Below, piece after piece: positions 1 through 8,264 of a stretch of DNA of 8,264 nucleotides; within the stretch, counting starts at the first letter, position 1, and each line of letters starts with the position of its first letter. This stretch comes from Nitrospira sp. Its GTDB lineage: Bacteria > Nitrospirota > Nitrospiria > Nitrospirales > Nitrospiraceae. The stretch lies in contig JABMDH010000003.1 of NCBI GenBank assembly GCA_015904075.1, forward strand, positions 1 through 8,264, in the 5' to 3' direction. Both the position numbers and the translations under genes were made by a program. The notes below the pieces were generated by a model. It was not told the origin of the DNA, did not search any database, and worked only from the letters and a program-made list of their open reading frames with translations.

Positions 1-1
1 T

Positions 2-217
2 GTGCGGCAGACGGCAAAGATTCAGAGCGGACTCGCGGTAGAAAAGGCCAAAGAGATTACGAGGGCGATCAAGGAATCAAAATTAAAAGTGCAGGGGCAA
101 ATTCAGGGCGAACAGGTGCGGGTGTTGAGTAAGAGTAAAGACGATTTGCAGGGAGCGATCGCCTTTCTCAAAGGCAAAGATTTCGGTATCGATCTGCAAT
201 TTACCAACTATCGATAA
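2..217 (+). CDS. yajQ: YajQ-family nucleotide-binding protein, 3' end (partial)
   Basis: This is the C-terminal 71 residues of a YajQ (UPF0234) protein; the gene begins upstream of the window and stops with TAA at 215-217. Recognition rests on the typical YajQ tail: a segment like [19 protein letters not shown], then IQGEQVRV, then [14 protein letters not shown], ending in LQFTNYR. From family knowledge, YajQ proteins are small cytosolic proteins of about 160 residues with two ferredoxin-like domains. They bind nucleotides, and some bind cyclic di-GMP and act as effectors with transcription factors. What it does here cannot be told from the tail alone. The next gene starts 62 bases downstream on the same strand with no obvious terminator between, so co-transcription is possible. 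The first GTG at position 2 is an internal codon, not the start. Confidence 0.9.
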
Positions 218-279
218 GATTCGACGGCCGGGAACGCTCTCATTTATCGGACTCCCTATTTGTTACTCCGCCGGACTTT

Positions 280-1299
280 ATGAAAAGGCTCGTCGGCCTC
301 CTGGTATTTCTTATTGGATTGCCACTGGCGGGCTGCAATCGCAGCGATCCGATCGTTGTGATTCAGCTCCACCCCAAGAACCCTGACATCATCTACGTCG
401 CCACGAACGACCATATTTATAAGACCCGTGACGGCGGCCAGACCTGGGCGAATCTCTCCAGAGGCATGAGCTATTCCCGTGTGATTGCCATGGCGATCGA
501 TCCGTCCTATCCGGCCACAGTCTATGCTGGTACGAAGGGTGATGCCGTCTACAAGAGCCATGATGGCGGGCAGCGCTGGATGTCGATGCGTGCGGGGTTG
601 GACGATGTCACGATCACGTCAGTTGTGAATCAGTTTCTGTTCGATCCAGCCGACAGTCAGCACATTTTTCTTGCCACCACGATGGGTGTGTTTGAAACAA
701 AGAACGGTGGCGAGCAATGGACGAAGCGTATGGAAGGGATGAAGGAAGTCTTGATGGTGGTGACACTCGGAATGGATCCGACCAGGCCTGCCGTTCTTTA
801 TGCGGGAACCAGCGGCGGCGTATATAAATCAGTCGATGGCGCCGGCCATTGGGAGAAGGTCAATAACGGGCTGGTGCCGCCCGGCATGCTCAAGACGTCT
901 CGCGCACTCAATGTGACGTCGATCCATGTTGATCCCTACGAGCCAGATACTGTTTATGCTGCGACGCTGGCGGGATTTTATAAGACGATTGATGGAGCGA
1001 AATCCTGGGCGCGTGTGGCGGAATCACTCGCAGATCAAATGTTGATGGGGATGGTTCTGGATCGCAGTAAAAGAGGTGTGATCTATCTTGCCGGAAGGGA
1101 TGGTGTGCATCGGAGCGAGGATGGTGGCGCGACATGGCACACGCTGAATAACGGGTTTTCAAGCACAAACATTCGATCGATTGCCCAGAGTGAGACCGAT
1201 TCCAGGCTCTTCTACGCGGGCACGAACGGCAGCGGGTTGTACCGCAGCCGTGATGCCGGTGAGACATGGGAGCCTATGTCAATGTTGGTTGAGAAGTAA
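280..1299 (+). CDS. Lipoprotein with seven Asp-box (BNR/Ycf48-like) repeats, predicted beta-propeller
   Basis: This 339-residue protein starts with a short lipoprotein signal: KR at residues 2-3, a hydrophobic stretch at 4-16, and lipobox LAGC with Cys19 as the lipidated residue. Asn20 at the +2 position suits export to the outer membrane. The rest is seven Asp-box repeats of type (S/T)xDxGxTW at about 49-56, 93-100, 140-147, 184-191, 236-243, 279-286 and 323-330. They are spaced 43-52 residues apart, as in a seven-bladed propeller of the sortilin/BNR/Ycf48-like kind. Between them recur blocks such as DPxxPxxVYAGT, one per blade. Boxes 4, 5 and 7 are degenerate (DGA or DAG instead of DGG). 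Such propellers usually act as binding or assembly scaffolds; Asp boxes alone do not show sialidase activity, and I see no catalytic set. The Shine-Dalgarno sequence before ATG 280 is weak. The gene may be co-transcribed with yajQ and faces the next gene tail to tail. Substrate unknown. Confidence 0.85.
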   Translation: MKRLVGLLVFLIGLPLAGCNRSDPIVVIQLHPKNPDIIYVATNDHIYKTRDGGQTWANLSRGMSYSRVIAMAIDPSYPATVYAGTKGDAVYKSHDGGQRWMSMRAGLDDVTITSVVNQFLFDPADSQHIFLATTMGVFETKNGGEQWTKRMEGMKEVLMVVTLGMDPTRPAVLYAGTSGGVYKSVDGAGHWEKVNNGLVPPGMLKTSRALNVTSIHVDPYEPDTVYAATLAGFYKTIDGAKSWARVAESLADQMLMGMVLDRSKRGVIYLAGRDGVHRSEDGGATWHTLNNGFSSTNIRSIAQSETDSRLFYAGTNGSGLYRSRDAGETWEPMSMLVEK

Positions 1300-1311
1300 C
1301 CAGCCCAGAAA

Positions 1312-2391
1312 CTATCGGCGGTTGCTGTTGAGATTGGAATCTCCAATCGAAGGACCGACTCCACGACGTGGAATGGTCGAGGATCCATCATGATTTTGCG
1401 CGTTATCGACTTCGAACCCGGTGCTGCTGTGAATCGTGGTGTCTTGCAGGTCTGTTCCTGGTCGATGAGGCAACTGGCTGTCATGAATGGCGTCGCCTCT
1501 CCGTGGACGTAACGATTCTCCAACGTTACTGTACGGAGAGACTGACGCTCCGATGTCTGCACCGAAGTTTGCATTCAGCTTGGTGTCTTCAATCTCTCCA
1601 CCGATCTTGGGGCGCAATGTGGTGTCCTGAATGTCCATGCCCGTGGGCGCTGCTGACGGCGGCTTCTTCGCGTTGAACTCTTTTTTGATCGCTTCCCGTT
1701 CGTCTTCTATCTGTTGCCGGACACGACCGCTTTGCTCATATTCTGCTTTGTCGACACCTTGTTGAGCCTCGCGCAAGTTATCGAGCCGTTCTTTGACGGA
1801 ACGTAAGTCATTCCTCGCTCGCGCCACTGTGCCGACGATCTCGCTGAGGGTGAATTGACGGGCGAACGTTCCGAGTTTTGGGGCCACTCCGGCGCCACCG
1901 CCAAGCCCTGTGTTTCCGGAGCCAACTCCGAATCCTGCCGAGTTAAAAATACCTTTTTGCTGAACGGCCTTCAGGATGTGGTTTGCCTCGTCGATCAAAT
2001 CGATGATTTCGCTTGGGGCGTCATCGGAGAGCAAACAACAGGATAGAAAGTTCCGGTATCGATCGGAAAACTTCGAGGCCTCGCTCTGCAATTCCACGAT
2101 TTTTATGGGGTCGCGATCCGGAAGGTCGTAACCCTGGTTTCGTGCGTTCTTTCGAAACGATTCCTCTGCTTGTGGGTCGTGCAGCGGTTGACAGCCGGAA
2201 CGTTGCTTAGTCGCGATCTGCTGATCCTGTGTTTTCCCAGGGCACCAAAAAATGGGGGCGGGGGGATTCAGTGGATTGTCGGGATTGAAGTCTTTTGCCA
2301 TCAGCTCGCCAGGAGTAAGGAAGGTCCAGAGAAGGACGGCGAGAGAGAACAGGAGAGCCGTGTGCTGTGATAGCGAGTGCAGAGTAGGCAT
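1312..2391 (-). CDS. Hypothetical secreted protein with coiled coil and C-terminal 13-residue repeats
   Basis: I do not recognise this family. The 359-residue product (ATG at 2391-2389) begins with a signal peptide: hydrophobic core about residues 11-27 and a likely signal peptidase I site after Ala32 (LMA|KDF). Next comes a Pro/Asn-rich segment at 34-48 and four cysteines (50, 67, 118, 119). A Gly-rich linker spans about 150-173, a charged, probably coiled-coil helix about 185-242, and a polar low-complexity tail from 251 has 13-residue repeats. It looks periplasmic or surface-exposed. A GTG two codons upstream (2397) is an alternative start. A GGAG element lies 9 bases before the ATG but only 3 before the GTG, so I prefer the ATG. 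The gene is divergent from rsmH and convergent with the propeller lipoprotein (12-base gap). A second copy of its first 68 codons lies at 2868-3073; between the copies the mature N-terminus (33-63) is identical in protein but has several silent changes, which supports a real translated gene. Confidence 0.75.
   Translation of the reverse strand: MPTLHSLSQHTALLFSLAVLLWTFLTPGELMAKDFNPDNPLNPPAPIFWCPGKTQDQQIATKQRSGCQPLHDPQAEESFRKNARNQGYDLPDRDPIKIVELQSEASKFSDRYRNFLSCCLLSDDAPSEIIDLIDEANHILKAVQQKGIFNSAGFGVGSGNTGLGGGAGVAPKLGTFARQFTLSEIVGTVARARNDLRSVKERLDNLREAQQGVDKAEYEQSGRVRQQIEDEREAIKKEFNAKKPPSAAPTGMDIQDTTLRPKIGGEIEDTKLNANFGADIGASVSPYSNVGESLRPRRGDAIHDSQLPHRPGTDLQDTTIHSSTGFEVDNAQNHDGSSTIPRRGVGPSIGDSNLNSNRR
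1315..1641 (-). repeat. 13-residue repeat array in the C-terminus of the secreted hypothetical protein
   Basis: Residues 251-359 of the minus-strand protein are built from a unit with approximate consensus G-x-x-(I/L/V)-x-D-(S/T)-x-(L/I) followed by four variable positions. Units start at Gly251, 264, 277, 299, 312, 325 and 346. The steps 251-264-277 and 299-312-325 are exactly 13 residues. The 277-299 and 325-346 steps carry irregular inserts, each with an RPRR- or PRR-type element just before the next Gly. Clear examples are GMDIQDTTL, GGEIEDTKL, GDAIHDSQL, GTDLQDTTI and GPSIGDSNL. The units at 277 and 325 are degenerate. I do not recognise the repeat as a known family; a short-period repeat with one conserved aliphatic residue per unit could form an extended or solenoid-like tail, but that is inference. 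Confidence 0.7.
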
Positions 2392-2593
2392 GGTCACATT
2401 CTCCGTCTCATTCCCTGATATGTCAACGAAACCGCAAGAGTTGGAAACTTTGGACGCATGTACGTCGCTTCTGTTGAGCGTCCAACTGTACGTCAGTCGA
2501 TGGAGGAATAATGAAATTAGACCAGAGCTTAGCCCCTCTTCACGCGCATGATCCTTTGACAGTATGAATCTGCAGTCAGCATTAAATTCCCCA

Positions 2594-2621
2594 TTGACAA
2601 CCGAATTTGCCGGAGTATACT
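2594..2621 (+). promoter_or_regulatory. Sigma70-type promoter, copy A, upstream of truncated rsmH
   Basis: A perfect -35 TTGACA (2594-2599), a 16-base spacer and a -10 TATACT (2616-2621) lie 28 bases before the GTG at 2650, leaving a leader of about 20 bases. The -10 sits in a perfect 12-bp palindrome, GGAGTATACTCC (2612-2623), so TATACT can be read on both strands. The element is identical in copy B although the surrounding intergenic DNA has diverged. From here transcription would cover the rsmH fragment and then run antisense to the truncated secreted-protein gene towards the intact rsmH; I see no convincing terminator on the way. Confidence 0.75.
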
Positions 2622-2630
2622 CCCGCTCTG

Positions 2631-2655
2631 TGGGTCGAAGTGGAGGATAGTGGGA
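2631..2655 (+). promoter_or_regulatory. MraZ-box-like triple repeat, copy A
   Basis: TGGGT (2631-2635), TGGAG (2641-2645) and TGGGA (2651-2655) are spaced by 5 bases each, giving a 10-base period. The MraZ operator of E. coli is known as TGGGN direct repeats with 5-base spacers between the promoter and the first dcw gene. The first and third repeats match; the middle one has A for the third G and doubles as the Shine-Dalgarno sequence. The copy differs from copy B by one spacer base only. Confidence 0.45.
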
Positions 2656-2865
2656 AATATTACTTCAGGAAGATCTGGGCATGTTCAAGTCCTTGGAAAT
2701 GAAGTCTCTTTTTGGCTCGATTTTAAGAGGCCAGTGACTATTTTGGATTGTACGGTGGGATATGGTGGGCATGCAGAAATGCTGCTGGATCACTCCGATC
2801 GAGCCACCAGGTTGGTTGGATTAGATCAGGATTCCCAGGCAATTGCATTTTCTCAAGAGCGGTTG
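2650..2865 (+). pseudogene. rsmH: Truncated rsmH (codons 1-72) with intact promoter and start
   Basis: GTG at 2650 opens a frame aligning residue for residue with the first 72 residues of the intact RsmH at 3331. It includes HVQVLGNEVSFWLD and the SAM-binding motif DCTVGYGGHAEMLLD. About five replacements occur after the conserved start region (Phe/Tyr and Lys/Gly near 25-26, His/Arg 48, Ala/Asp 52, Gln/Arg 60), with about seven silent codon differences. Homology ends at ggttg (2861-2865). The frame stays open for 34 more codons of unrelated sequence, antisense to the truncated secreted-protein gene, and stops at 2970. Without the rest of the methyltransferase fold and the substrate-binding domain it cannot be an active enzyme. 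Whether the 106-residue chimera is made is unknown; its promoter and ribosome-binding site look functional. Confidence 0.85.
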
Positions 2866-2867
2866 GT

Positions 2868-3073
2868 GGTTGACAGCCGGAACCTTGCTTGGTCGCAATC
2901 TGCTGGTCCTGCGTTTTTCCGGGGCACCAAAAAATGGGGGCGGGGGGATTCAGGGGATTGTCGGGATTGAAGTCTTTTGCCGTCAGTTTGCCAGGAGTAA
3001 GAACGGTCCAGAGAAGGACGGCGAGGGAAAATAGGAGGGTCGTGTGCAGTGATGGCGAGTGCAGCGTAGGCAT
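2868..3073 (-). pseudogene. Truncated copy of the secreted hypothetical protein gene (codons 1-68)
   Basis: From ATG 3073-3071 leftwards this matches the first 68 or so codons of the gene at 1312-2391: signal peptide, mature start KDFNPDNPLNPP, and the FWCPGK cysteine motif up to GCQP. Residues 33-63 are identical in protein but differ at about seven silent codon positions; about six replacements fall in the signal peptide. Past position 2868 the frame enters antisense rsmH and remains open to a stop at 2738, so a chimeric exported peptide of about 111 residues is possible on paper. The coiled coil and repeat tail are missing, so I call it a broken gene. Confidence 0.8.
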
Positions 3074-3274
3074 GGTCACATTTTCCGTCTCATTCCCTGA
3101 GAAGTCAACGAAACCCCAAGAGTTGGAATCTTTGATTGCAGGTACACCGCTTCTGTAAGGGTCTAACTGTGTGTCAGTGATGGGGGAATAATGAAATGAG
3201 ACCGGACTGTGGTCTCTCTCCATACACGTGACCCTTATGACGGTATGAATCTGCAGGTAGCGTCAAATTCCCCA

Positions 3275-3302
3275 TTGACAACCGAATTTGCCGGAGTATA
3301 CT
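3275..3302 (+). promoter_or_regulatory. Sigma70-type promoter of rsmH and the dcw cluster, copy B
   Basis: TTGACA (3275-3280), a 16-base spacer and TATACT (3297-3302) precede the rsmH GTG at 3331 by 28 bases. The -10 again lies in the 12-bp palindrome GGAGTATACTCC (3293-3304). It is the obvious promoter for the tightly packed rsmH-ftsL-ftsI-murE-murF genes downstream. The symmetric -10 could also fire leftwards, toward the minus-strand gene, although no good -35 is visible on that strand. Confidence 0.8.
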
Positions 3303-3311
3303 CCCGCTCTG

Positions 3312-3336
3312 TGGGTTGAAGTGGAGGATAGTGGGA
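3312..3336 (+). promoter_or_regulatory. MraZ-box-like triple repeat at the rsmH start, copy B
   Basis: TGGGT (3312-3316), TGGAG (3322-3326) and TGGGA (3332-3336) sit at exact 10-base period, just downstream of the promoter. The second overlaps the Shine-Dalgarno sequence GGAGG (3323-3327) and the third overlaps the GTG start. Position and spacing match the known MraZ operator layout, TGGGN-N5 repeats. The middle repeat deviates by one base. mraZ itself is not in this window, so the binder, if any, would be encoded elsewhere. Some of the match is unavoidable, since a Shine-Dalgarno and a GTG start supply TGG-like strings. Confidence 0.5.
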
Positions 3337-4263
3337 AATAATAAGTCAGAGAACTCAAGGCATGTTCAAGTCCTTGGAAATGAAGTCTCTTTTTGGCTCG
3401 ATTATGGGCGGCCAGTGACTATTTTGGATTGTACGGTGGGGTATGGTGGGCATGCAGAAATGCTGCTGGATCGTTCTGATCGAGATACCAGGCTGGTTGG
3501 ACTGGATCGGGATTCCCAGGCGATTGCATTTTCTCAAGAACGGTTGATGAGATTTTCGGAGCGTGTCGTGTTGAGAAAGGGAAATTATCGGGATCTCAAA
3601 CGGCATCTTGCAGACATAGGAATTGTGAAAGTGGAGGGAGTGTTGTTCGATTTCGGCGTGTCGTCTCCTCAGCTCGATGATCCGGCACGCGGGTTCAGTT
3701 TTCAGCAAGACGGCCCGCTTGATATGCGCATGGACCAAACGACCGGCTCGACAGCAGCCGTATTGGTGAATAGCGCTCGGGAAGATGAACTTGCGGACAT
3801 CATTTTCCACTATGGCGAGGAGCGCTATTCGCGGAGAATCGCTCGCGCAATCGTGCGAGAGCGGGAACGCCGGCCGATTGAGACTACGGGTGTGCTCGCG
3901 TCTGTGATCGCGGGGGCGGTTCCGTCTGCCTATCGGCATGGACGGATTCACTGTGCAACGAGAACGTTTCAGGCGCTTCGTATCGCCGTGAATGGTGAGC
4001 TTGAATGTCTGGAGCCGGCGCTTCGAGACGCTGCCGACATATTGGCTCCGGGAGGAAGGATTTGCGCGATCTCGTTTCACTCCCTTGAGGATCGTATCGT
4101 CAAGCATACGTTCAGATCTCTTGCGCAGGGCGCCAGCGCGCGGCTGTCACTTCTGACAAAGAAACCTGTTCTCTCTTCTGAGCAGGAGTGCCAGGTGAAT
4201 TCCAGGGCGCGAAGCGCCAAGCTGCGTGTTGCCGAGCGTGCGCCTGAGGAGATGGCTCTATGA
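3331..4263 (+). CDS. rsmH: 16S rRNA (cytosine-1402-N4)-methyltransferase RsmH
   Basis: This 310-residue protein has the usual RsmH (MraW) length. The family transfers a methyl group from S-adenosylmethionine to N4 of C1402 in the 16S rRNA decoding centre. Visible motifs are HVQVL (11-15), SAM-binding DCTVGYGGHAEMLL (33-46), GLDRD (57-61), FDFGVSSPQLD (106-116), GFSFQQDGPLDMRM (121-134), YGEERYSRRIARAIV (161-175), ATRTFQALRIAVNGEL (209-224), SFHSLEDRIVK (248-258) and the C-terminal NSRARSAKLRVAER. I chose GTG 3331 because GGAGG lies just upstream and it gives the family-typical N-terminus. An in-frame TTG at 3316 is not conserved in the duplicated copy, where the codon is TCG. It is the first gene of the dcw cluster here, follows a strong promoter, and overlaps ftsL by 4 bp (ATGA). 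Its 5' 216 bases are duplicated at 2650-2865. Confidence 0.97.
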   Translation: MGNNKSENSRHVQVLGNEVSFWLDYGRPVTILDCTVGYGGHAEMLLDRSDRDTRLVGLDRDSQAIAFSQERLMRFSERVVLRKGNYRDLKRHLADIGIVKVEGVLFDFGVSSPQLDDPARGFSFQQDGPLDMRMDQTTGSTAAVLVNSAREDELADIIFHYGEERYSRRIARAIVRERERRPIETTGVLASVIAGAVPSAYRHGRIHCATRTFQALRIAVNGELECLEPALRDAADILAPGGRICAISFHSLEDRIVKHTFRSLAQGASARLSLLTKKPVLSSEQECQVNSRARSAKLRVAERAPEEMAL

Positions 4264-4592
4264 AAATTCTGGCTGTGCTCATTGGGTTGTGCCTGGTTTT
4301 CCTCTTTGTGTGGGAACGAGTGGATATTGTGCGGGTCGGATATCACGTCGAACGGCTCAAGGTTGAGAAGTCGAGACTTGAGCGAGAGCGCGATCAGCTC
4401 CAGGTCAAACTCTCTGCGCTCAGCGCTCCTGACCGAATCGCCAAAATGGCAACGGAGCAACTCGGTATGGTTTCGCCGCAGAAGGGGCAGGTGATTATGG
4501 TGCAAGCCAGGCCTGCTGGAGATCCACGCGTTCGTCCGGCTCCGGCTGAAGTACGCATTGCACGCAATGATGTGTCCGACTGGAGGAGATAG
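4260..4592 (+). CDS. ftsL: Cell division protein FtsL
   Basis: This 110-residue protein has the FtsL layout: a very short cytoplasmic start, one transmembrane helix at about residues 3-18, and a periplasmic coiled coil at about 28-54 rich in Glu, Arg, Lys and Leu. The conserved juxtaposed block PDRIAKMATEQLGMVSP follows at 57-73, then a Pro/Arg-rich tail. FtsL forms a trimer with FtsB and FtsQ (DivIC/DivIB in Gram-positives) and helps activate FtsW-FtsI at the septum. Sequence conservation is low in this family, so the call leans on topology, the PDRI-type block and position between rsmH and ftsI. The ATG overlaps the rsmH stop (ATGA) and the TAG shares its last base with the GTG of ftsI, so translational coupling on both sides is likely. 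Confidence 0.9.
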   Translation: MKILAVLIGLCLVFLFVWERVDIVRVGYHVERLKVEKSRLERERDQLQVKLSALSAPDRIAKMATEQLGMVSPQKGQVIMVQARPAGDPRVRPAPAEVRIARNDVSDWRR

Positions 4593-6334
4593 TGGCTGCC
4601 CCTCTTGGGCGTGGACGGCGATACATTACGTTGCTGCTGCTCTTGTGCGGGTTTGGAGTGGTGTTGTTCCGGCTGGCCACGCTTCAGGTCTTGCAGGCTG
4701 CGGAGCTGACGGTCAAAGCAGATCGGCAACATCAAAAAACGGTCTCGCTTGAAGGGGTGCGGGGCACGATCGTCGATCGTCATGGAAAGATGCTGGCGAT
4801 GAATTTAGAAGTGCCGTCTGTCTTTGGTGTTCCGACTGCGCTTGACAGCCCGGCAAAAACAGCCCGTTCGCTCTCGCCCGTCCTTCATGTGCGGGCCGAC
4901 GAGTTGGAGCGGAAGCTTCGGCAAGACCGAGGGTTTGTCTGGTTGGCAAGAAAGTTAGACCCTGAGCAGGGTCGCCGGCTTGAGCGTATGTCCATGGAGG
5001 GCATCGGCCTTGTGTTGGAAGGCCGTCGGTTTTATCCCAAGGGGCCGCTTCTGTCTCACGTCTTGGGCTTTGCGGGAATGGACGGCGACGGATTGGAAGG
5101 CATCGAGCGTCGATACGAATCGCATTTACATGGTGAGAAACGTGTGACAGTGCTGCAGCGTGATGCGTTGGGTCGTACGGTATTTCCTAAGGAATTGTCG
5201 AAAGAGCAAAGCCCTACACCGGGTCATCAGCTGATACTCACGATCGACGAAGTCATTCAATACGTTGTGGAAAAAGAATTGGAGGCAGCAGTTGCTCGCG
5301 CCGAGGCGAAGTCCGGCACGATGATCGTGTTGGATCCGAGCACCGGCGCGCTCCTGGCTTTGGCCGTCAGCCCCCGCTTTGACCCCAACGCAGTTTCCGC
5401 TTTGAAGCCTGATCGCTGGCGGAACCGCGCATTGACGGACGCCTATGAGCCTGGTTCCACCATGAAAGCGATTCTCGCTGCGGCAGTTATTGAGGAGCGG
5501 GTGATGAAGCCGGATACGCTGGTATTTGGAGAGCAAGGGCGCATGGCCATTGGGAATACCATGATCCACGATCATGAAAAGCTTGGATGGCTCTCGTTTG
5601 CCCAGGTGATTCAAAAGTCCAGTAATGTCGGCGCGGCGAAGGCCGGGATGGCTTTGGGTGAGCAGCGATTCTATCGCTATCTCCAATCCTTCGGATTCGG
5701 GGAGCGTACTGAGATTGATCTTCCCGGAGAAGCTGCAGGGTTGCTCAAACATCCGCGAGATTGGGGAGGGCGAACCCTTGCGTCGGTTTCGATGGGCCAA
5801 GAAATCGGCGTGACTCCGATGCAAATGGTATCCGCTGTGGCCGCCATTGCAAACGGCGGAGTGCTGATGAGGCCCTATGTCGTTTCGGAAATCCGCGATG
5901 CTCAGGGGCAGACTTTGAAAGAGGTTCTCCCTCATGTGAGGCGGCGGGTCATCTCACCGGAGACTGCGCGAACCGTCACCGCGATTCTTGAAGGTGTCGT
6001 CACTGACGGTACGGGAGGGAAGGCGGCAATCGCCGGGTTCCGGGTGGCGGGGAAGACCGGGACTGCGCAAAAGATCGATCCACGTACAGGAAGGTATTCG
6101 GCGTCCCAGTTTGTCAGTTCATTCGTGGGGTATGTCCCGGCAAACAATCCACGGTTGGCTATGATCGTCGTGATCGATGAGCCGCGAGGCGAGTCTTGGG
6201 GTGGGACCGTGGCGGCGCCCGTCTTCAATCGTGTCGGTGAACAGGTGTTGAATTACCTGGGTGTGTCATCGAATGTCCCAGTCAAGCTTGCGATGGCATC
6301 CGATGGCATCGGGAAGACCGGGATCGATTTCTAG
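4592..6334 (+). CDS. ftsI: Septal peptidoglycan transpeptidase FtsI (PBP3, class B PBP)
   Basis: This 580-residue class B penicillin-binding protein makes the peptide cross-links in septal peptidoglycan, partnered by the glycosyltransferase FtsW. After a basic start (GRGRR) it has one membrane anchor at about 11-30. The non-catalytic dimer/pedestal domain follows, with RGTIVDRHGKMLA at 57-69, GRRFYPKGPLLSHVLGF at 144-160, and GLEGIERRYESHL at 167-179. The transpeptidase domain spans roughly 235-555. Its catalytic motifs are complete: SxxK as S289-TM-K292, SxN as S343-S-N345, and KTG at 488-490 followed by TAQK. No PASTA domain is present, as in proteobacterial FtsI and unlike SpoVD-type proteins. 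GTG 4592 has GGAGGAG 3-4 bases upstream. The last 13 residues are set by a 10-bp tandem repeat (6291-6310) and look unconserved. beta-Lactams are the known family inhibitors. Confidence 0.97.
   Translation: MAAPLGRGRRYITLLLLLCGFGVVLFRLATLQVLQAAELTVKADRQHQKTVSLEGVRGTIVDRHGKMLAMNLEVPSVFGVPTALDSPAKTARSLSPVLHVRADELERKLRQDRGFVWLARKLDPEQGRRLERMSMEGIGLVLEGRRFYPKGPLLSHVLGFAGMDGDGLEGIERRYESHLHGEKRVTVLQRDALGRTVFPKELSKEQSPTPGHQLILTIDEVIQYVVEKELEAAVARAEAKSGTMIVLDPSTGALLALAVSPRFDPNAVSALKPDRWRNRALTDAYEPGSTMKAILAAAVIEERVMKPDTLVFGEQGRMAIGNTMIHDHEKLGWLSFAQVIQKSSNVGAAKAGMALGEQRFYRYLQSFGFGERTEIDLPGEAAGLLKHPRDWGGRTLASVSMGQEIGVTPMQMVSAVAAIANGGVLMRPYVVSEIRDAQGQTLKEVLPHVRRRVISPETARTVTAILEGVVTDGTGGKAAIAGFRVAGKTGTAQKIDPRTGRYSASQFVSSFVGYVPANNPRLAMIVVIDEPRGESWGGTVAAPVFNRVGEQVLNYLGVSSNVPVKLAMASDGIGKTGIDF
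6291..6310 (+). repeat. Perfect 10-bp tandem repeat at the 3' end of ftsI
   Basis: cgatggcatc occurs twice in a row (6291-6300 and 6301-6310), within ftsI, 22 bases before its stop codon. The unit is not a multiple of three. Reading with only one unit puts ftsI into the murE frame, passes the current TAG out of frame, and meets no stop before the murE ATG at 6342. Confidence 0.9.
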
Positions 6335-6341
6335 CGAGACG

Positions 6342-7847
6342 ATGATGACGTTTGCGGCAATGCTTCAGGCGCTTACAGGACAGGTCAAGACGCTCGATCG
6401 TCGCGGCAATTTCGATATCTCGATCAGTGCGATTACCGACGACTCTCGAGCGGTTCAAGCGGGGAGCGTTTTTGTGGCTGTCAAAGGCGAACAGGCGGAT
6501 GGGCACACATTCATCCCCGTTGCGGTGAAAGGCGGCGTGGCGGCTGTCGTTATGCAGGAGCCCGCAATGGACTTGCCGATTCCATTCGCTCGGGTGGCGG
6601 ATTCACGAAAAGCGCTCGGCCTGCTTGGAAATCATTTTTATGGAGAGCCATCATCGAAGATCCGGATGATCGGCGTCACCGGGACAAATGGAAAGACCAC
6701 CACGACGTATGTGTGCAAGGCGTTGTTGGAAGCGTTGGGCCGACGGGTTGGATTGATCGGAACCGTGGCCTATCAGATCGGCAACGAAACGATCCCGGCC
6801 TCGCATACGACACCGGGTGCATTGGAGTTGCAACAGTTGCTCGCCAAGATGGTGACAGGCGGCTGCACGACGGCAGTGATGGAGGTGTCGTCCCATGCCC
6901 TTGCGCAGGACCGTGTTAGCGGATGCGAGTATGACGTTGCCGTGTTTTCAAATTTAACGCAGGACCATCTCGATTTTCATCGCACCATGGAAGAGTATTT
7001 TTTGGCGAAGTTACGTCTGTTCACCGGACTCACTGGAACCAGCAAGCCGAACAAGCGCGCCATTGTAAACGTAGACGATCCTGCGGGAGACCGGATCAAG
7101 CAGCTTTGTCCGGTTCCCGTGTGGAGCTATGGATTGAAAGCGAAAGCGGATCTGCGAGCCGAGCATGTCCGGCTATCGCTCGGAGGTACAACCTTTACGG
7201 CGGCGACGCCGGCCGGGTCCTTTTCAGTTGAGAGCCAGTTGGTGGGTGAGCACAACGTCTATAATTTGTTGGCTGCGATCGGAGTCGCACTTCATGAGGG
7301 GGCCACGCCGGATCAGGTTCGCCAGGCGGTTGCACATGTCACGAATGTGCCGGGACGGTTCGAGCGTGTGATGGCAGGACAGGAATTTACCGTCGTTGTC
7401 GATTATGCCCACACGGAGGATGCGCTCGTCCGGCTGTTGACCGCCGCACAGGCGCTCAAGGCCGGACGCATCATCACGGTATTCGGCTGCGGGGGCGATC
7501 GCGATCGCGGAAAGAGGCCCAAAATGGGAAAGGCGGCCGTGCAGTACAGCGACGTGGTGATTCTGACTTCCGACAACCCGCGGACCGAAGACCCGCTCTC
7601 GATTCTTCAGGACGTCGAGGCTGGCGTGGCTGAAGCTTTGAAGCAGCGATCGCAGGTGCTTTATCGAAAGGTCGCTGATCGGCGGGAGGCGATCAGTGAG
7701 GCGGTGCGAGAGGCTCGTTCCGGAGACATGGTGTTGATCGCCGGGAAAGGGCATGAGGATTACCAGATCATCGGCACAAAGAAATATCATTTCGACGACC
7801 GTGAAGTAGCACGTGAAGCCATTGAACGGCGTAAGACCTGTGCATGA
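6342..7847 (+). CDS. murE: UDP-MurNAc-L-Ala-D-Glu:meso-2,6-diaminopimelate ligase MurE
   Basis: This 501-residue cytoplasmic Mur ligase adds the third stem residue to UDP-MurNAc-L-Ala-D-Glu with ATP. Domain 1 (UDP binding) includes DDSRAVQAGSVFVAVKG at 33-49. The central ATPase domain has P-loop VTGTNGKT (112-119), HTTPGALELQ (155-164) and MEVSSHALAQDRV (180-192). The EEYFLAKLRLF segment carries the family's carbamylated lysine, here Lys223. The C-terminal domain has PGRFERV (337-343), VDYAHTEDAL (353-362), GCGGDRDRGKRPKMG (382-396) and GKGHEDYQ (468-475). DNPR at 411-414, followed by TEDP, is the signature for meso-diaminopimelate rather than L-lysine, so the wall is predicted to be of the A2pm type. 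I chose ATG 6342, 7 bases after the ftsI stop; ATG 6345 is equally possible. The frame is also open upstream to 6261 inside ftsI, but that overlap carries no MurE sequence. The ribosome-binding site is weak, suggesting coupling to ftsI. Confidence 0.97.
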   Translation: MMTFAAMLQALTGQVKTLDRRGNFDISISAITDDSRAVQAGSVFVAVKGEQADGHTFIPVAVKGGVAAVVMQEPAMDLPIPFARVADSRKALGLLGNHFYGEPSSKIRMIGVTGTNGKTTTTYVCKALLEALGRRVGLIGTVAYQIGNETIPASHTTPGALELQQLLAKMVTGGCTTAVMEVSSHALAQDRVSGCEYDVAVFSNLTQDHLDFHRTMEEYFLAKLRLFTGLTGTSKPNKRAIVNVDDPAGDRIKQLCPVPVWSYGLKAKADLRAEHVRLSLGGTTFTAATPAGSFSVESQLVGEHNVYNLLAAIGVALHEGATPDQVRQAVAHVTNVPGRFERVMAGQEFTVVVDYAHTEDALVRLLTAAQALKAGRIITVFGCGGDRDRGKRPKMGKAAVQYSDVVILTSDNPRTEDPLSILQDVEAGVAEALKQRSQVLYRKVADRREAISEAVREARSGDMVLIAGKGHEDYQIIGTKKYHFDDREVAREAIERRKTCA

Positions 7848-7884
7848 CCGAGGATAGGATTGCTTGATGCGGAGAAGAAGACCT

Positions 7885-8264
7885 ATGCCGCTGTTAACCG
7901 TTGAAGAACTGCGGGAAGTAATCAGCACCAAGATCTTGGCCGGTGCGGGAGCCGGCTGGATGAAACAGTCGGTTCGGCAGATCAGTCTTGATAGCCGGTC
8001 GATCCGTTCCGGAGATCTCTTCCTGGCCATGAAGGGAGAGCGCTTTGACGGGCACGATTTCGTCGGCGCTGCGTTGTCTCGCGGAGCCGCGGGGGCGATC
8101 GTGTATGACTCCTATGATGTCGAACCGCTCGCAATAAAACCCAACCCGAAGCGACTGGCCCCGTTCATCTTGGGCGTCCGTGATCCGTTATTTGCGTATC
8201 AGCAGCTTGCAACCCACCATCGAAGCCGGTTTGACATTCCGGTTGTGGCGGTGACGGGGAGCAA
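7885..8264 (+). CDS. murF: UDP-MurNAc-tripeptide:D-Ala-D-Ala ligase MurF, 5' part (partial)
   Basis: The first 126 codons of MurF run off the right edge. The visible part is the N-terminal UDP-binding domain: PLLTVEELREVI at 2-13, ISLDSRSIRSGDLFLAMKGERFDGHDFV at about 33-60, a Gly/Ala-rich turn AALSRGAAGAIV at 62-73, then LGVRDPLFAYQQLA at 96-109. The start of the P-loop, VAVTGS (121-126), is followed by the window end, where NGKT is expected. MurF adds D-Ala-D-Ala to the A2pm-containing tripeptide made by the upstream MurE, completing the UDP-MurNAc pentapeptide. ATG 7885 fits the family start and has GGAGAAGAAG 4-14 bases upstream. An in-frame ATG at 7867, also with an AGGA upstream, would add six residues (MRRRRP) and cannot be excluded. 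The gap from murE is 37 bases with no terminator, consistent with one operon. Confidence 0.95.
   Translation, partial: MPLLTVEELREVISTKILAGAGAGWMKQSVRQISLDSRSIRSGDLFLAMKGERFDGHDFVGAALSRGAAGAIVYDSYDVEPLAIKPNPKRLAPFILGVRDPLFAYQQLATHHRSRFDIPVVAVTGS

Follow-up and report, generated by a model that had tools for sequence, protein, structure and literature searches.

Spontaneous tandem duplications in bacteria form across short junction homologies, and their copies start out identical. In natural transformation, homology-facilitated illegitimate recombination produces a one-ended, non-homologous join at a few bases of microhomology. A third kind of adjacent duplicate is an assembly error known in animals, the false "heterotype" duplication, in which two haplotypes are assembled as paralogues; in the part of the source cited here, gaps between the copies are described as typical but not obligatory (PMC9516828). 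We analyzed an 8,264-nucleotide stretch of Nitrospira sp. DNA (here referred to as the window; assembly GCA_015904075.1, contig JABMDH010000003.1, positions 1 to 8,264) in which two divergently oriented genes, rsmH and a gene for a secreted-looking protein, have their 5' ends present twice, as a direct repeat at the front of the division (dcw) cluster. The locus shares the head-to-tail geometry and non-homologous junction of a spontaneous tandem duplication, but its copies are 12.7% apart and its cut parts show no sign of decay. Homology-facilitated illegitimate recombination would yield a non-homologous, one-ended join with donor sequence continuing in register on the other side, but here no donor or homologous end was located and at most one shared base is visible. 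With false heterotype duplications, as far as the cited part describes them, it has in common two diverged versions of one locus side by side, each still constrained; those cases come from diploid animals and often have gaps between the copies, whereas the window is a bacterial contig without Ns. Judged indirectly, from sequence comparison, the two copies are very probably the versions of a single-copy locus carried by two Nitrospira lineages, whose distance from each other is about that of the window from the closest genome found (G098), and they were placed end to end recently.

A BLAST self-comparison, together with the gene coordinates, confirmed the structure described in a first-pass annotation of the window: a head-to-tail direct repeat with complementary truncation that leaves one intact copy of each gene (Table 1). 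The left copy has the secreted-protein gene whole and rsmH cut after 73 codons, and the right copy has the secreted-protein gene cut after about 71 codons and rsmH whole. The copies align over 684 columns at 87.3% identity (84 mismatches, 3 gap openings, E value printed as 0.0) and form the sole direct repeat of at least 100 bases that BLAST detected within the window; in a separate repeat listing of the window, the same repeat comes out as three pieces. The annotation had placed the copies 2 bases apart, but they abut without a spacer and overlap by one base, at 2868. It was right that the left rsmH is cut, although the rsmH-like sequence runs past the 72 codons that it gave and reaches codon 73 (GTG, Val), as in P0005, P0006, and others. 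The pentamer GGTTG does stand at both original ends of the segment (2186-2190 and 3542-3546), as annotated, but joining through it did not hold up. The join (junction sequence GGTTGGTGGTTG) contains the pentamer twice, at 2861-2865 and 2868-2872; a merged join would keep one, so GGTTG was not merged as microhomology, and the number of shared bases visible is at most 1 (2868).

The annotation attributed the repeat to an in situ tandem duplication in one genome via short microhomology, in which case the halves would have diverged afterwards. The geometry and the presence of GGTTG at both original ends agree with that origin, and the doubled pentamer at the join speaks against it. What decides the interpretation is the 12.7% difference between the copies, which the annotation omits. 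Synonymous divergence (dS) between them reaches 0.33 for the secreted-gene part and 0.29 for the rsmH part. Uncorrected, the synonymous differences amount to 14/52.2 and 12.5/52.2 sites, respectively, and the flanking genes of the window differ from those of G098 by 0.15 to 0.36 on the same uncorrected scale. Despite this divergence, the two cut parts behave as if they had remained under selection. Their ratios of nonsynonymous to synonymous divergence (dN/dS) between copies are 0.14 and 0.30, with 7 and 11 amino acid changes where neutral runs average 13.6 and 17.0 (P = 0.0011 and 0.0047). Neither cut fragment contains a stop or frameshift, and a stop was present in 53% and 61% of neutral runs. 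Each of the 18 residues by which a cut fragment departs from its intact counterpart is found at the equivalent position of full-length homologues, in a comparison that used 120 listed of 366 and 120 listed of 218 homologues. There were thus 0 unseen residues against neutral means of 6.3 and 9.3, and 0/5000 runs came out as low for either fragment. In a simulation with spacer-like transitions and transversions, 0 unseen residues had a P value of 0.045 when 15% of the changes were unconstrained and of 0.11 at 10%, which sets a ceiling of about 15% on the divergence that could have accumulated after truncation. Individual residues can be traced to particular homologues: L11 and V26 of the right copy are common to full-length P0125 and to none of nine other aligned homologues, and in the left copy M33 is common to P0126, P0129, and G098, and R66 to these and P0128. 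After a duplication of such age the cut parts should have drifted; because they show constraint and no decay, an in situ origin is not supported. The synonymous divergence, similar to that between the window and G098 in the flanks, and the intact constraint together make it most likely that each copy diverged as a functional allele in a lineage of its own and that the two were brought together recently.

We compared each copy with G098 and with a further relative, G077. Overall identity is 87.6% between left and right, 90.9% between left and G098, and 85.7% between right and G098, so that the left copy is nearer to G098 than to the right copy; on identity alone, this is not the pattern expected of copies that descend from one genome's segment. 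Over the secreted-gene part and the spacer, G098 and G077 are 84.4 and 80.9% identical, the right copy and G098 are 86.3 and 82.5% identical, and the left copy and G098 are 91.0 and 92.5% identical. Since the distance between G098 and G077 is close to that between the right copy and G098, the right copy lies at a normal distance and the left copy is unusually close to G098. The best tree, which covered the secreted-gene end and the leader and left the rsmH part outside, separates the left copy from the right with a bootstrap value of 75. Approximately unbiased (AU) test values for the three arrangements were 0.848, 0.233, and 0.111, and none was excluded by the test, so we do not take the tree as proof.

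The single-copy state of relatives, which the first-pass annotation had named among its grounds for giving up the duplication, is what we found in G098 and, as far as rsmH matches show, in the family of G002 and G001 (175 genomes). G098 (RsmH 91% identical) has one copy; both window copies map onto one and the same stretch, and collinearity with the window extends to either side. An RsmH match was present in 170 of the 175 genomes and was the only one in 166 of these 170. A second rsmH 5' part was found in none of the 170, although the genomes may be incomplete; the search was sensitive enough for a 5' fragment to show, as a 66-residue piece in G077 scored 104 bits. In the remaining four genomes, the second match is one gene split into two adjacent pieces (G006), part of the 3' end on a different contig (G171), or a weak match with an E value of ~3e-4 (G110 and G139). 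No internal repeat of at least 100 bases was seen in 77 family loci, a set in which some genomes are represented more than once and the spacer is not always covered. These counts bear on a further possibility, an old full duplication of both genes in which both pairs long remained functional and a later deletion fused them. It would account for divergence under constraint, but a single rsmH is the rule in the family, the four exceptions are of the kinds just given, and the family search found no genome with two complete gene pairs; we regard it as very improbable.

The locus in G077 (L150, G077:C22:1-6590) ends inside rsmH, at ...TTTTCTCAAG, where its contig stops within ~10 bases of the place equivalent to the junction. 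We considered whether G077 shares the repeat; no second copy and no other rsmH part were found in its assembly, with the limit that the contig stops just before that place, and its end there is possibly due to chance or possibly points to a problem at that position. The G112 locus (L151, G112:C366) matches the left flank, the secreted-protein gene, and about 40 bases past its start, and then neither the spacer nor rsmH; it seems to lead into other sequence beyond the secreted-protein gene, and G112 is without any RsmH match. Two contigs of G171 carry different rsmH genes (L153 and L156), 60% and 68% identical to the query, the second partial; this genome is perhaps a mixed bin.

As to how the two alleles were joined, the single most likely mode, with about an even chance, is a chimeric metagenome contig. 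Sequence of a lineage A ending in rsmH codon 73 would have been joined to sequence of a lineage B starting inside the secreted-protein gene, a join that would count the shared 0.68 kb twice. In the cited part of one study, at least five Nitrospira species co-occurred in all of the waterworks and recombination was low (PMC8751384). A search with the junction protein gave 3 matches, the window's own and two RsmH fragments that continue as normal RsmH beyond codon 73, and none of the junction in another assembly; the mirror-image cut secreted protein was outside this search. The window's own match (P0001) lies on a 59,534-base contig, so that the source is probably a metagenome contig. We counted for the chimeric contig that the junction protein occurs in this contig only, whereas the RsmH of the window has a 93% relative that represents 94 sequences, and that no second 5' part was found in the 170 family genomes.

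A real and very recent junction between lineages is quite possible, if not our first choice. Related Nitrospira DNA could have entered by one-ended homology-facilitated illegitimate recombination, or a recent tandem duplication could have been followed by allelic replacement of one copy. In the one-ended version, homologous pairing of the incoming DNA would take place within rsmH or at a later point in the dcw cluster, and the opposite end would be attached to codon 73 of the resident rsmH with no homology involved. The promoter and start of rsmH would then be retained, with a second promoter added upstream. The evidence for two alleles applies equally to this explanation, and the join is free of gaps. 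Taken piecewise, the right copy is 85.5% and 77.4% identical to G098 within 2868-3267 and ~90% or more after 3268, as if no more than a short piece were foreign, but the rise also fits a conserved rsmH promoter and coding part. Both flanks also lie at similar relative distances from G098 and G077. Weighing on the other side, the junction is seen in a single contig, the join shows no more than one shared base, the absence of decay requires a very recent event, and the Nitrospira populations covered in the cited part of PMC8751384 recombine little. Tentatively, the window may capture a wild Nitrospira chromosome soon after one-ended interspecies integration at the front of an essential division cluster, with the divergent promoter region present in tandem in the versions of two species and both truncated genes still undecayed.

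Several observations weigh against a chimeric contig or against two separate lineages. The join lies between non-homologous positions that share a few bases at most, and overlap-based assemblers do not normally make such joins. There is no gap between the copies and no N in the sequence at the join. Occurrence of the junction in a single assembly counts for little, since the 94 sequences behind the 93% relative may belong to the same species only in part. In the secreted-gene part and spacer, the right copy has 15 and 29 unique changes and the left copy has 5 and 5, an excess that by number fits relaxed constraint; it is the kind of change, not the number, that speaks against relaxed constraint in the right copy. 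The rsmH part places left, right, and G098 at equal distances from one another (three-way counts of 11, 13, and 12, star-like). The arrangement with the copies as each other's closest relatives has the AU value of 0.233. Finally, identities in the left flank (window-G098, 89.9%; window-G077, 89.2%; G098-G077, 89.3%) and right flank (92.6, 91.0, and 92.1%, respectively) reveal no clear switch of lineage from one side of the join to the other, which neither supports nor excludes a chimera. By number alone the surplus of unique changes also fits in situ duplication, and the tree does not exclude it, but in rsmH the left fragment shows no excess of unique changes over the right (12 versus 13) and the cut fragments are undecayed at a divergence like that between species, which leaves that origin improbable. 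Most likely, the annotated repeat is right in outline and its proposed origin is not: the alleles of two lineages stand end to end, by assembly or by very recent transfer.

The window shows how what looks like a duplication in a metagenome contig is recognizable as two joined alleles from its bases alone, through species-level synonymous divergence together with constraint in parts expected to be dead. If the junction is an artifact, neither genome has a decoy rsmH, and the decoy should not be recorded as biology. If it is real, it would be a fresh example of one-ended interspecies DNA integration in nitrifying bacteria, among which low recombination has been reported for some.

The second rsmH promoter-like site that the annotation noted upstream is present in the left copy, and its TTGACA and TATACT hexamers recur unchanged in the right copy, G098, and G077. 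In a real structure, the promoter-like site and start codon that belong to rsmH would be retained, so that expression of the cluster should persist. The upstream site would then add a transcript reading across the cut part of the secreted-protein gene, and this transcript would be opposed by any promoter that the cut gene still has. Minus-strand promoter-like matches at 2426-2398 and 3108-3080 abut the start codon of the secreted-protein gene; we rejected them as its promoter because they adjoin the start codon and the scan was expected to yield 1.6 sites by chance. The window's repeat listing holds no inverted repeat pair framing the repeat unit, although no search was aimed at insertion sequences; two listed inverted repeat pairs (I2 and I4) sit at promoter-like sites.

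Table 1. Features of the repeated segment and its genes (window coordinates)
Feature	Position	Strand	Evidence or remark
Left copy of repeat (secreted-gene 5' end, spacer, rsmH 5' end)	2186..2868	+	BLAST; 90.9% identical to G098
Right copy of repeat	2868..3549	+	BLAST; 85.7% identical to G098
Junction GGTTGGTGGTTG	2861..2872	+	Pentamer twice; rsmH-like up to 2868, secreted-gene-like from 2868 on
Cut rsmH 5' part, left copy (73 codons)	2650..2868	+	PF01795; frame open, continues to 2970
Cut secreted-gene 5' part, right copy (~71 codons)	2868..3079	-	Frame open
rsmH promoter-like site, left copy (TTGACA-16-TATACT)	2594..2621	+	11/12 matches
rsmH promoter-like site, right copy (TTGACA-16-TATACT)	3275..3302	+	11/12 matches
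Intact secreted-looking protein gene (361 aa/codons)	1315..2397	-	Start GTG at 2397, stop 1312-1314
Intact rsmH (310 aa, start GTG)	3331..4263	+	PF01795, 359.5 bits; 91% to G098

The gene order of the window is the end of yajQ, a BNR/sortilin-type repeat protein, the secreted protein (minus strand), rsmH, ftsL, a penicillin-binding transpeptidase, and two Mur ligases. The yajQ label comes from the first-pass annotation and gene order, with no family search behind the name, and the transpeptidase is called ftsI by position. The secreted-looking protein was so labeled from a signal-peptide-like start, judged by eye; a Pfam search with it gave no match, and it has 366 homologues at an E value of ≤0.001. 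In the compared Nitrospira loci its gene stands head-to-head with rsmH, and the protein is fast-changing (23-75% identity across L001-L006, which are loci of Nitrospira, Nitrospiraceae, or Nitrospirae metagenome-assembled genomes). L002-L005 keep the gene order of the window with a single secreted-protein gene and a single rsmH. The order is also kept in L001, where the secreted protein is far more diverged (23% identity), and in L006, where it is diverged (31%) and ~2 kb of extra sequence lies between the BNR gene and the secreted-protein gene.

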